DNA of 21,584 nt. Origin: a virus. The stretch spans positions 1-21,584 of the IMG/VR virus record IMGVR_UViG_3300042385_000707; one strand, given 5' to 3'. Below, in pieces: positions 7,931-19,795 of this stretch. Each line of letters opens with the position of its first letter. Within the stretch, counting starts at the first letter, position 1. Made by a program: the position numbers and the translations under genes. The notes below the pieces were generated by a model, which was not told where the DNA came from, ran no database searches, and saw only the letters and a program-made list of their open reading frames with translations.

Positions 7931-8329
7931 TTACTCATTGTATATGATATTTTCAAATAAGTCAAGCTGTTCTTCATCAATACTGGTTAATTTTTTAGGT
8001 GTCCAAGTAATAGGAACAAAACTAGAAAGTGGTTCCTTGTTTAATCTTATATTTAACATAGAGTTTAAACAATTTGGATCATGCCGCTGTTGCCATTGCA
8101 GTAAAAACTCTTGCATCTTAGCATGAGATTTTTTCTCATAAATTGCAATAGTTTCTTTTTTAAGTTCACCTTCAAACTCTTTAACATAGGCAGAGCTTCC
8201 ATAATATTTTTCATATAACTTTTCAGTTTTACCAGAGTAACCGATATAATATAAACCAGACGGAAAATATGTACAATATACTCTATGAATTGGTTTTATT
8301 TTCGGTTTTTTCTTCTTTACTACTATCAT
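7931..8329 (-). CDS. Free-standing GIY-YIG endonuclease
   Basis: A 132-aa protein with a GIY-YIG nuclease core: VYCTYFPSGLYYIGYSGK (Tyr18, then Tyr28-Ile29-Gly30), KYYGSS (residues 41-46), a probable catalytic glutamate in AKMQEFLLQW (Glu74) and a closing asparagine in NCLNSM (Asn89). The usual separate DNA-binding region is missing or reduced to the last 40 residues. Three in-frame ATGs exist (8344, 8338, 8329); 8329 is favoured because GAGGA lies 8-9 bases before it. The gene starts inside the 3' end of the preceding 61-aa gene and has its own late promoter and an RNA hairpin around the ribosome binding site, as in T4 homing endonuclease genes. Its 3' end carries the -35 and -10 boxes of the next operon. 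Nuclease family likely; homing role inferred. Confidence 0.78.
   Translation of the reverse strand: MIVVKKKKPKIKPIHRVYCTYFPSGLYYIGYSGKTEKLYEKYYGSSAYVKEFEGELKKETIAIYEKKSHAKMQEFLLQWQQRHDPNCLNSMLNIRLNKEPLSSFVPITWTPKKLTSIDEEQLDLFENIIYNE
7937..7965 (-). promoter_or_regulatory. Sigma70-type promoter for the small-barrel operon
   Basis: TTGACT (7965-7960), 17-bp spacer, TACAAT (7942-7937) on the minus strand. It lies entirely within the last codons of the GIY-YIG gene; the start near 7930 gives a leader of about 24 bases. Confidence 0.8.
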
Positions 8330-8468
8330 TAAGTACATCCTCATTATTAGATGTACTATTTATGACTTTATTTTTACTGAATATCAGATCCCAGTTGTCG
8401 CTAAACTTTTGTTTATCTACTTTGCGTTGGGCGCTGCCTTTACCGCCCGACCACTGACCCTGTACCAT
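8283..8468 (-). CDS. Small basic phage protein with a 3' end overrun by the GIY-YIG gene
   Basis: A 61-aa protein starting MVQGQWSGGKGSAQRKVDKQ and continuing FSDNWDLIFSKNK. A short 'GGKGS..R...F..NWD.IF.K' protein of about 35-40 residues is, as I recall, common in marine T4-like phages. Here the frame runs on through a low-complexity Ser/Asn/Glu/Lys tail (STSNNEDVLNDSSKEEKTENK) that overlaps the late promoter, hairpin and first codons of the GIY-YIG gene by about 47 bases. The ATG at 8468 has GAGGA about 11 bases upstream and follows the zinc-ribbon gene by 2 bases. Function unknown; the tail may be an accident of the nuclease gene's arrival. Confidence 0.65.
   Translation of the reverse strand: MVQGQWSGGKGSAQRKVDKQKFSDNWDLIFSKNKVINSTSNNEDVLNDSSKEEKTENKTNS
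8332..8357 (-). promoter_or_regulatory. RNA hairpin over the GIY-YIG ribosome binding site
   Basis: On the mRNA, AGUACAUC (8357-8350) pairs perfectly with GAUGUACU (8339-8332) around a 10-base loop. The GAGGA ribosome binding site straddles the loop and the 3' arm, 2 bases before the AUG at 8329. Transcripts coming from upstream would fold it; a transcript from the late promoter would begin within the 5' arm and could not. Confidence 0.8.
8357..8364 (-). promoter_or_regulatory. T4-type late promoter CATAAATA
   Basis: One mismatch from TATAAATA. It lies 28 bases before the ATG at 8329, the same distance as in the plus-strand cassette. The predicted start is near 8351-8352. Confidence 0.68.
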
Positions 8469-16130: not shown

Positions 16131-17675
16131 TTAGTCAGGGAACTGAATATCATCAGCAGCATCACTGGTGATGCCATTTTTTGATAACGCACATAAAACT
16201 TCATACTGAATACGACCTGCTCTTGCACCAGTACCAACAGTGCGTTTTACCCAACCAACGTGTGATGCTGAAGTACCTGTTTCACCAGTACCCTTAGCAG
16301 CAGTTGCAGTTGCTTGATCAGCAGTTGCTTGAATTTCAAAATACTGAGCACTATTACCAGTTCCAGAAATCAGAACGATTGTAAATGGCGTATATGTTAG
16401 ACCAGTTGGTGTACCCGCAGTTGTAGTAATTGCAGAACCAGCGTCAGTGGTTAGTGTGAAACCAGTCACAGATGGCGATGTACCAGTAACAGCAGAAACA
16501 GTATAGATAGTTCCTGTTGTATAATCAGTAATTGTTCCAGTGCCGCCTAGTGTACCAGTAATTCTAATACGATCACCCGCTGCTAGAGTTGTTGCAGTAC
16601 AAGTAAATTCGCCACCAGTTCCAGCGATAACAACACCAGCGAGAGCGGTACGACCAGCAGCAGCGGCCGCTGATGCAGCAAGGCGGAAAGTGCCAGCAGC
16701 CAAACCAAGAGCAGATACGAAATACTCAGTATCATCAACCAAGCCTGTGATAGCTGTGCCTGCACCAACTTTAAAATACTTAACTGATTCAGCAGCAACT
16801 AAGCCGTGTGTAGCATATGCGATTTGCTCAGTAGCGATTGTAACACTACCTGTAGGAATAACACGACGAGGTTTAGCAATAGCAACAGTTGGTACAGTTT
16901 CATATGATGAACCAACGTTTGTTACTGTGACTGCCGTTACTAATCCACCCGCGATGGAAGCAGTTGCAGCAGCAGAAGCGCCACCACCACCAGAGAAAGT
17001 AACTGCGGGAACTTCAAGGTAACGTGCGCCGCCTTGAATCAGAGCAACTGAGGTTACATTATCACCACCTGAACCAATTTCAGTAGTATCAACACCAAAA
17101 ACATTGCTAGACAGAGTATTTGAATCTGATGCAATTGATTTCGGTTTTTGACTAATTGTAAAGCCTTCACCACTAAAAGCAGTCAGAGTTGTAACAGGAT
17201 TTGCGTTTATAACAGTAGCAACAGTATCACTTGCAACTGCAATTGCAATCATTTCTTGATTGCCCACACGCACAGTATCTCCAACTGAAAGTTCAGGAAT
17301 AAAATTAGTGCTAGAGCCTGTAAGAGTCCCGCGACCGTAATTTAAACTTAATGTGAATGTATGTGAAGCGCCACTGCCATCAGTTGATGCAATTATAGTA
17401 GGATTATTGTGCAACGCACCTGCTTCTGTAGCAGCAACGCTGAAAGTATCAGTAGTTACGTTAGTTACAAAGTAAGTGTCACCATCAGTCAAACCGACTA
17501 CTTGAGTGCCGCCGCCATCTGAATATGCAACAGGATCACCTAGTTGAAATGGGTGTGCTGCTGAAGTATAAACACCAGCAGCATGTGCTGTGGCGCCGTT
17601 GAATGTGATAGACGGCGCGGTAAGAGTTACTGTGCCGTCTGAAGTTGTATCGTCTTTTTTGCCCCAAGCTGACAT
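16131..17675 (-). CDS. Large beta-rich Gly/Ala/Thr virion protein
   Basis: A 514-aa protein with low sequence complexity. It starts MSAWGKKDDTTSDGTVTL, an opening I associate with a structural protein family of marine T4-like phages. Inside are two related modules: HPFQLGDPVAYSDGGGTQ...GLTDGDTYFV...TFSVA (residues about 41-80) and HGLVAAESVKYFKVGAGT...GLVDDTEYFV...TFRLA (about 290-335). Between them lies a 'YLEVPAVTFSGGGGASAAATA...GSSYETVPTVAI' unit of the type seen in fibre repeats. The base composition is richer in G+C than its neighbours because of Gly/Ala codons. AAAGGAG stands before the ATG, which overlaps the upstream stop as TAATG. Structural role is well supported; the exact virion part is not. 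Confidence 0.72.
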   Translation of the reverse strand: MSAWGKKDDTTSDGTVTLTAPSITFNGATAHAAGVYTSAAHPFQLGDPVAYSDGGGTQVVGLTDGDTYFVTNVTTDTFSVAATEAGALHNNPTIIASTDGSGASHTFTLSLNYGRGTLTGSSTNFIPELSVGDTVRVGNQEMIAIAVASDTVATVINANPVTTLTAFSGEGFTISQKPKSIASDSNTLSSNVFGVDTTEIGSGGDNVTSVALIQGGARYLEVPAVTFSGGGGASAAATASIAGGLVTAVTVTNVGSSYETVPTVAIAKPRRVIPTGSVTIATEQIAYATHGLVAAESVKYFKVGAGTAITGLVDDTEYFVSALGLAAGTFRLAASAAAAAGRTALAGVVIAGTGGEFTCTATTLAAGDRIRITGTLGGTGTITDYTTGTIYTVSAVTGTSPSVTGFTLTTDAGSAITTTAGTPTGLTYTPFTIVLISGTGNSAQYFEIQATADQATATAAKGTGETGTSASHVGWVKRTVGTGARAGRIQYEVLCALSKNGITSDAADDIQFPD

Positions 17676-19795
17676 TATTCTTCTCCTTTGAGTTTTTCTT
17701 GTATTAAATTATTAAGTTCTTTGTAAGCAACAATCTTTTCTCTAGCGGTGCCTTCTACAATTGTCTTACGCAATATTTGTATTTGTTCATCGACATCTTT
17801 CTTTAAAGGAGCCATGCCTCTCTGAGCTCCAGCAGATTTCATATCTCTTTTTGCTAATTTCTTAACAGATTTTTCAGCGGCACCACTTTGTACTCTGTCA
17901 GCAGCTCTTGCAATCATTCTTAATCTTTCTGCTTTCTGTGCAGGAGTCATTTCTTCAAATGTAAGTTCAGCTTCTTCTTTTTTGACACTAACAGACGGTG
18001 ATGATTTAGGTTTTGAATAATAGGATTTACGCTTTTTTCCATCTTCGTTTCCTAATTCGTGTTCCATTTCTTTACGTTTGAATTCTTTTTTGCTCATTGA
18101 ATCATATGAACCATAATAGTCATCGTTTTCATCCATGCGCCCATTAGATGCAAGTCTTTCTTTGCGTCTTTGTGCGGCAAAGTCAGCACCTTGTGGTTGT
18201 TTTTTCTTTGCTCTAAGAAGTTTAAAATCATGAGCATCAACTTTGCCATTTTTGTTAGCATCTATTTTGTGTTGATTGCCTATCAATTCGTTTACTGATT
18301 CAACTTCTTCTTTCTTTGTTGAATTACTTTTTATTTTATTCAACGCAAGATTTAAGCCATCAACTCTTTTTTTAGTAAATTTATTTTCAGCTCCAACCTT
18401 TTTGACATAAGATGACATGGTTGGTGTTGATAGTTCATCAATCTGTTCAACTTCTTCCTTTAGACCATACTTCTTTTTATACCAGTCAGGTGTTCCACTT
18501 GTTTTGCGGAAATGTCTTACTGTTGCAGAATCATTTGCTTGGTCACGATACTTGTTTTCAGCAGTAGTATTATGTGACTTCATTGCTTCTGCTGCTGCAT
18601 GTGCATCTTTTGCAATGCCAACTAATTCAGCATTGGACTTTTCATGATACGCATGACCTTCTAATGGATGACGTTGTGAAGGACGACCTTCATCAAGTTC
18701 AACTTCTTCTTTCTTCATTCCAGGCGTTGTCATCTTAGCATGTTTACGAACAGCATGTTCTGGACTATCTGCATAAACATGATAGGGCTGATCTTTCTCA
18801 CCAGTTGTTTTTGGATTATCTTTAACAGCGTTACCATTTTTAACTGCATAACGGTGTTGATAACCAACCTCGTCTTCATCAAGTTCAATTTCTTCTTTCA
18901 TTGATTTCCAACTGCCGCCCATTTCTTTATATTTTTTTGCTGCCCAACCATTAGCATACGCTGAAGGATAAACATCAAACTTAGCTTTAGCTTGTGATTT
19001 AGCTTGTGCCCATTTTTCAGGACTTGTTGGTACATTTTTTTCATCAAGTTGTTCAATGTCAGTTTCAACATTTTCATTTTGTCTTTTAAGTACTGCTTTT
19101 ACTTGAGGATGATCTGACAAACCAGGTTTAAGTTTTTCAATGGCGTTTACTGCACCAGTCATATCACCTTTTTTGTAACGTTTATCTGAAGCAATACCGA
19201 CAGCTTGTTTTACTTTCACATCTTCTTCAATGTCAGACAAGTCATTATCGCTAGAGGCAGAATCTACAACAATAAAAAACTCTGCCTTTTTGTCTTCAGG
19301 CAAATCTCTAATATTGGTAACACCGTATAATTCTAATGCAGCTTCAAACACTGCTTGATAGGTATTATTGATTGCTAATAAATCTTCATCCAATCCAGCT
19401 TTTCTTTTTTCTTTTTTTACCGCAGCAGGAAGAAGTTTAAATCTTTCTTTTTTATCGGCAGCTCGTACTCTAAGTTTACGTTCTGTTTGTTTTCTATGTT
19501 GCTCTTCTTCTTCAGGATTGTCAAAGATTTTAACACCATTATTCACGGTGATTTCCTCCGTTTGATATTTTGATTTTTGTGTATGTAATTTTGCCCGGTT
19601 AAAAACAGTAGTATCATTTAACATAATACTTGTCAAATTGTCCATATACTTAGATATTACTTCCCTTTCATTTGGCAATAATTGTTTACCCATACTAAGG
19701 TTTTCTAAACCTTGAACTAATATAGGAAGTTTATTGCTAGGGACAATGCCTAGGCGAACTAACTGTTCTAATCTCTGTTTTTCTATTTTTTCCAT
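17675..19795 (-). CDS. 706-aa charged modular protein, possible head/virion-core protein
   Basis: A very hydrophilic Lys/Glu-rich protein. The first 70 residues form a helical domain (KQRLEQLVRLGIVPSNKLPIL). Later modules include AKFDVYPSAYANGWAAKKYKEMGG (near residue 275), a repeated linker of the form KKEEVE(L/S)(D/N)E seen five times (ELDE, ELDE, QIDE, SVNE, LTFEE), and an EF-hand-like loop DANKNGKVDAHD at residues 512-523. The 'FDVYPSAYAN' module recurs in marine phage proteins. The [IL]xE linkers resemble sites for a T4 gp21-type prohead protease, suggesting a core or internal head protein, but this is inference. The ATG at 19795 has no ribosome binding site; a TATAAATA box ends 5 bases before it. 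Confidence 0.68.
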   Translation of the reverse strand: MEKIEKQRLEQLVRLGIVPSNKLPILVQGLENLSMGKQLLPNEREVISKYMDNLTSIMLNDTTVFNRAKLHTQKSKYQTEEITVNNGVKIFDNPEEEEQHRKQTERKLRVRAADKKERFKLLPAAVKKEKRKAGLDEDLLAINNTYQAVFEAALELYGVTNIRDLPEDKKAEFFIVVDSASSDNDLSDIEEDVKVKQAVGIASDKRYKKGDMTGAVNAIEKLKPGLSDHPQVKAVLKRQNENVETDIEQLDEKNVPTSPEKWAQAKSQAKAKFDVYPSAYANGWAAKKYKEMGGSWKSMKEEIELDEDEVGYQHRYAVKNGNAVKDNPKTTGEKDQPYHVYADSPEHAVRKHAKMTTPGMKKEEVELDEGRPSQRHPLEGHAYHEKSNAELVGIAKDAHAAAEAMKSHNTTAENKYRDQANDSATVRHFRKTSGTPDWYKKKYGLKEEVEQIDELSTPTMSSYVKKVGAENKFTKKRVDGLNLALNKIKSNSTKKEEVESVNELIGNQHKIDANKNGKVDAHDFKLLRAKKKQPQGADFAAQRRKERLASNGRMDENDDYYGSYDSMSKKEFKRKEMEHELGNEDGKKRKSYYSKPKSSPSVSVKKEEAELTFEEMTPAQKAERLRMIARAADRVQSGAAEKSVKKLAKRDMKSAGAQRGMAPLKKDVDEQIQILRKTIVEGTAREKIVAYKELNNLIQEKLKGEE

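Follow-up and report, generated by a model that had tools for sequence, protein, structure and literature searches.

Organization of the nuclease locus

The window, that is, the whole 21,584-nucleotide stretch of viral DNA that was analyzed, carries on its minus strand a gene for a GIY-YIG-like nuclease of 132 residues (7931-8329). In minus-strand order, its leader runs through C8364, ATAAATA (8363-8357), GTACATC (8356-8350), TAATAATGAG, GATGTACT (8339-8332) and TA to the ATG start codon (8329-8327). C8364 and ATAAATA make up a T4-type late promoter box, CATAAATA (8357-8364), which occupies positions -13 to -6 relative to +1 in T4 (PMC1524935). This spacing places the predicted late transcription start on the sixth base past the box, 8351.

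The last base of the box also opens a hairpin, identified by folding and covariation. Its 5′ arm, AGTACATC (8357-8350), is perfectly complementary to the 3′ arm, GATGTACT, and U8349 adds a ninth pair with G8340. RNA reading through from upstream is predicted to form this 9-pair stem with an 8-nt loop, together with a 5-pair outer helix in which GTCAT (8366-8362) pairs with 8329-8325 and, in the window version, covers the AUG. The Shine-Dalgarno sequence GAGGA (8342-8338) overlaps the 3′ arm and is partly paired: G8339 and A8338 belong to the perfect stem and G8340 to the wobble pair, and G8342 and A8341 are loop bases. RNA initiated at 8351 according to the T4 spacing retains just UC of the 5′ arm. 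The sequence confirms the original prediction as to the perfect 8-bp repeat, the late box and the start codon, and initiation, which had been expected near 8351 within the 5′ arm, is predicted exactly on that base. GAGGA, which had been put 2 bases before the AUG, is 8 nt away from it; a distance of 2 nt fits the end of the arm. An alternative start at AUG 8344, giving a longer in-frame ORF, was rejected because this ATG is missing in several homologues, whereas the post-hairpin ATG is present in all of them; both this ATG and the Shine-Dalgarno sequence are kept in all relatives with the hairpin leader (class H, see below).

A second minus-strand ORF of 61 residues (8283-8468) spans the late box and the hairpin, with its stop codon 46 nt into the nuclease gene. 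Most relatives with the same box-to-AUG spacing as the window (N = 27) show this in-frame read-through too, ending in the tail INS[T/V]S..E..LDG, and the genes preceding the cassette in such leaders include several unrelated ones. Relatives of the window's upstream protein that lack the cassette terminate elsewhere. ATAAATAGT has one open frame only. The covarying stem bases alter the upstream peptide (INSTSDNEDVLDG / INSVSDDEETLDG / INTTTTDEVVDNG), so that pairing is what is kept, and peptide conservation is excluded as the origin of the repeat.

The window operon (primase, nrdA, nrdB and dCMP deaminase) contains two perfect sigma70-type promoters on the minus strand, one before the primase gene (14290-14262), a candidate source of early read-through RNA, and a second recovered by the promoter scan at 13291-13263. 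No strong terminator appears between these promoters and the cassette in the terminator scan, and the promoters, together with T4 practice, suggest that read-through RNA would be made early. The hairpin was also considered as an intrinsic terminator and rejected, as no T-run follows the stem and the scan does not list it. No Rfam family is matched in the window. Homologues of the late sigma factor gp55 are found in three large cassette-bearing contigs (1.6e-55 to 8e-46, with the protein of cultured phage Mosig as query); the window is a 21.6-kb fragment without gp55.

ATAAATA occurs five times in the window against 10.6 expected, and four of the five copies immediately precede a gene start. 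In larger related contigs the motif is oriented along genes and depleted elsewhere. One box (10077-10071, minus strand), about 51 nt upstream of nrdB, suggests that this nucleotide-metabolism gene is transcribed both early and late. The sole plus-strand gene block provides a contrast case (2182-2219), with a late box, an ordinary 27-nt leader, GGAG and no hairpin.

The nuclease family

The nuclease and its relatives comprise 111-132 residues and share invariant VY.TYF...YYIG, K.YEKY.GSS and E/N positions in alignments. The window protein has no Pfam or NCBIfam match; its relative in Pelagibacter phage Aegir matches PF01541 (GIY-YIG) at E 0.046, below the cutoff. The predicted fold (pLDDT 65) resembles many viral GIY-YIG and homing endonucleases with a Foldseek probability near 1, and the best PDB match, a weak one (E 0.25), is UPF0213 entry 1zg2, which we take to belong to a family with the GIY-YIG fold. 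A second AlphaFold run with 17 relatives was poorer (pLDDT 57). We found no separate DNA-binding domain in the protein. The GIY-YIG identity originally assigned to the product is not obvious by sequence; the motif, the relative's weak Pfam match and the fold comparison point to a GIY-YIG-like protein with putative nuclease activity.

Three viral-contig searches place the gene in about 96 contigs, counted as distinct entries across the three lists. A search of bacterial and archaeal genomes returned none, and no cultured carrier of the cassette is present among 50,697 phage records, in which the only matches are distant relatives from phages Aegir and Kolga. At least nine upstream and at least four downstream gene clusters flank the cassette. 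So many different neighbors are as expected of a mobile gene, for which homing is a putative route. The order of box, hairpin, Shine-Dalgarno sequence and AUG moves with the gene among these neighbors.

The leaders fall into three types. Class H contains the box, hairpin, Shine-Dalgarno sequence and AUG, with 20-30 nt from box to AUG. In class S, 4-5 nt separate the box from the AUG, and both hairpin and Shine-Dalgarno sequence are missing. The third type, represented by a few leaders (L054, L072 and L238), lacks a late box close to the gene start. Leaders of class S or of the box-free type, without the hairpin, are found in a quarter to a third of the relatives.

Covariation of the stem and accessibility of the ribosome-binding site

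Compensatory changes in the two arms, which the original prediction had proposed to look for in homologues, are readily seen. Across 14 distinct class H leaders of full length, pairing of the stem persists through two-sided changes at five of its eight pairs. Paired cells amount to 98.2% compared with 81.5% after shuffling, and the covariation score is 0.58 versus 0.25 after shuffling and at most 0.25 when slid. Natural arm pairs include GTACATC/GATGTAC, GTGTTTC/GAAACAC, GTGTATC/GATACAC, CTACTACC/GGTAGTAG and GTACAC/GTGTAC. Leaders L226 and L227 have matching flanks and differ by a swap of both arms. The shorter-looped class H leaders (L124, L146, L159, L175, L182 and L244) also pair.

Inverted repeats of at least 8 nt with a spacing of up to 30 nt number 95 in the window, so the 8-bp repeat alone means little. 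The 111-nt leader folds with z = -2.8 relative to shuffles. Accessibility was computed as the predicted energy required to open the ribosome site in early (read-through) RNA and in late-start RNA. Mean unpaired probability over four Shine-Dalgarno bases was rejected for this purpose because its noise masked the difference between the two RNAs, even in the case of T4 soc. For the window, opening costs 13.4 kcal/mol in read-through RNA and 3.3 kcal/mol in RNA starting at 8351, a gap of 10.1 kcal/mol. A gap as large is reached by 1 in 1000 shuffled leaders, or 2 in 1000 with GAGGA kept in place. Unlike the repeat alone, the combination of box, hairpin and ribosome site exceeds chance.

Among 24 distinct class H leaders the mean drop from early to late RNA is 8.2 kcal/mol, and it is greater than 4 kcal/mol in 23; L155 is the lone member without a predicted change. 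The same script recovers the same layout in segB, I-TevI, e and gene 49 of T4, and the drops for the T4 controls are 8.7 (I-TevI), 11.7 (segB, from 17.3 to 5.5), 11.2 (e), 13.8 (gene 49) and 2.0 kcal/mol (soc). Marine-phage late genes with comparable box spacing show mean drops of 2.2-4.0 kcal/mol. The claim that late RNA would escape the hairpin agrees with these values, for the window and the T4 controls alike. The claim that the hairpin traps GAGGA stands in terms of the predicted opening cost, but the motif is only partly paired.

Predicted leaderless late genes

Homologues that keep the box and lack the pairing arms, a combination that the original prediction had regarded as adverse, do occur as class S, yet these leaders also lack the Shine-Dalgarno sequence and have the box 4-5 nt from the AUG. 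In our reading, class S does not refute the hairpin switch, since without a Shine-Dalgarno sequence there is no site to hide. The box-N4/5-AUG spacing predicts a 5′ end at the A of the AUG, i.e., a leaderless late mRNA. We read class S as a second route to late-only expression, by which late RNA would be translatable from its AUG and read-through RNA would have no ribosome site.

The box-N5-AUG arrangement without a Shine-Dalgarno sequence is not limited to the nuclease. In Mosig it is found in 6 of the 38 genes with a box within 80 nt of the ORF start, contig G001 has eight such genes at N4-5, and four other contigs have two each at N5. Permuted motifs give an average of 0-0.85 per genome, and none of the T4 genes has box-N5-AUG. 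Counted over whole records, ATAAATA-N5-ATG occurs nine times in HTVC008M, eight in Mosig (seven exactly at annotated gene starts) and four in Melnitz, as opposed to one to three in cyanophages (the control level), none in KVP40 and two each in RB49, RB69 and T4. Across pelagimyophage-like genomes the box-N5-AUG arrangement is enriched.

The window contains one such gene, encoding 706 residues (17675-19795, minus strand), in which exactly 5 nt lie between late box and AUG (19807-19795) and a Shine-Dalgarno sequence is lacking. The G003 and G005 orthologues, about 52-64% identical, keep N = 5 with a different spacer sequence. The tail-tube gene (L266:7393-7974, plus strand; N4 site in L261) has a hairpin leader in G005 and box-N4-AUG in G001. 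Nuclease leaders likewise alternate between classes H and S, even where the upstream gene cluster is identical. We consider it plausible, at somewhat below even odds, that pelagimyophage-like phages use two interchangeable late-only leaders, hairpin or leaderless, on the same genes, and that the leaderless form is regular there and not in T4. The literature searched yielded no published report of hairpin control or leaderless expression of late genes in marine T4-like phages, and the placement of late boxes at exactly 5 nt from the AUG in pelagimyophage-like genomes is apparently unreported. Cultured phages, among them Mosig and HTVC008M, make leaderless late translation open to a direct test.

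Other genes with a late box and hairpin

The gene for a small protein with an EF hand and a transmembrane segment combines the box with a hairpin over the Shine-Dalgarno sequence in every late-box copy examined (G003, G004, G005, L281, L282, L284, L290 and L335). Loci with this layout include L270:8927-9247 (minus), L275:5157-5465 (plus) and L267:19359-19697 (plus). Most homologues of this protein are in operons without a box. A Seg-type homing endonuclease gene (phrog_314; L270:14873-15667, minus) has AAAGTACATA paired with TATGTACTTT downstream of the late box, which buries the AUG itself. A holin-like gene (phrog_3427, E 3e-4; L273:1838-2299, minus) combines the box with a strong start hairpin (-10 kcal/mol), reminiscent of T4 lysozyme control. 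The occurrence of box and hairpin on these EF-hand, Seg-type and holin-like genes indicates that the device is in general use in these phages.

Probable function of the hairpin

The arrangement is real and conserved, and it most likely works as a late-promoter/hairpin switch of the kind used by T4, carried here by a new, widespread marine gene family. Early RNAs from the primase/nrd operon would carry both arms and form the hairpin, which would hide the ribosome-binding site and, in the window, the AUG as well. Late in infection, RNA polymerase with gp55 would initiate from the CATAAATA box at about 8351, and the transcript, having two bases of the 5′ arm, would form no hairpin and leave GAGGA and the AUG exposed. 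We infer a late 5′ end, with low early and high late translation. Covariation, the shuffle test, T4-like energetics, gp55 in carriers and the many neighbors all argue for a timing role, and we consider it likely that the mobile GIY-YIG-like gene carries a switch for the timing of its own expression, in the form of a late promoter built into a hairpin.

Three other explanations were weighed against this one. Ribosomes translating the upstream ORF (8283-8468) could open the hairpin, such that nuclease expression tracks the upstream gene instead of being confined to late infection. The ORF does cross the hairpin in the same frame in nearly all leaders with N = 27, where the upstream genes include several unrelated ones; however, an end 46 nt past the AUG is ill suited to reinitiation, and the ribosomes on this ORF would themselves cover the Shine-Dalgarno sequence. 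Moreover, the hairpin is equally kept where the upstream gene stops short of it (L124, L159, L175 and L244), and coupling leaves unexplained why a late box is fixed at the 5′ arm. We regard such coupling as unlikely. Early melting by these ribosomes could still occur, and it is the main uncertainty about the "strictly late" expression originally proposed.

The inverted repeat could alternatively act as DNA, either as an operator that lets the nuclease repress the late promoter of its own gene or as the remnant of a target site. The operator of I-TevI overlaps its late promoter (PMC2988022), as the repeat overlaps the late box here, but several observations make a DNA site quite improbable. At least seven arm pairs occur among proteins that are 72-85% identical, with complementarity retained; 4 of 14 leaders have G-U at pair 13-26, which breaks the dyad symmetry of DNA and not RNA pairing; and the loop length differs between classes (L159, L124, L180 and L236), which would shift the phasing of a dyad. 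Chance, or an RNA-processing hairpin with no timing role, gains some plausibility from the abundance of 8-bp inverted repeats in this AT-rich DNA. It is very hard to reconcile with the covariation, the shuffle test and the recurrence beside many different neighbors, and we give it little credence.

Comparison with known systems

In T4 the late box and hairpin of e, soc and gene 49 block translation of early read-through RNA (PMC3014915). For I-TevI, with a late promoter, and for I-TevII and I-TevIII, with another internal promoter, only RNA from that promoter escapes a hairpin that sequesters the Shine-Dalgarno sequence (PMC2988022, PMC3014915). The earlier attribution of the device to I-TevI, e and soc is correct by these reports, and the layout of e and I-TevI is seen with our script. 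The genes e, soc and gene 49 differ from the nuclease in not being mobile cassettes, and e and soc are not nuclease mobile elements. I-TevI, I-TevII and I-TevIII are intron-encoded and not translated through, and I-TevI additionally autorepresses by binding its promoter.

The free-standing setting, which the original prediction had singled out, was already known from T4 segB and Aeh1 mobE (PMC2988022). PMC2988022 and PMC3014915 present mobE as a free-standing endonuclease of the nrd operon with a hairpin sequestering its Shine-Dalgarno sequence; it differs in belonging to the HNH family, in being embedded in nrdA and in residing in an Aeromonas phage. What the present locus adds is that the T4 trick of timing by RNA start site forms a portable cassette in a nuclease family of uncultured marine T4-like phages, with comparative support of a sort that few T4 examples have.

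T4 segB, a free-standing GIY-YIG homing endonuclease gene with this device (PMC2988022), is much alike: it shares the CATAAATA box, the hairpin over the Shine-Dalgarno sequence and the order of box, hairpin, Shine-Dalgarno sequence and AUG, with 22 nt from box to AUG. The segB protein is larger, at 221 residues versus 111-132 here. The segB gene follows tRNA genes, whereas the hairpin here is often inside the coding frame of a neighbor. In segB the bases up to and including the AUG have the CATAAATA box itself as their pairing partner. The 5′ arm of the marine leader begins at the last box base and does not use the box, which leaves the arms free to drift and covary. Finally, in contrast to segB and the other T4 cases, an alternative leader of leaderless type exists in these marine phages.
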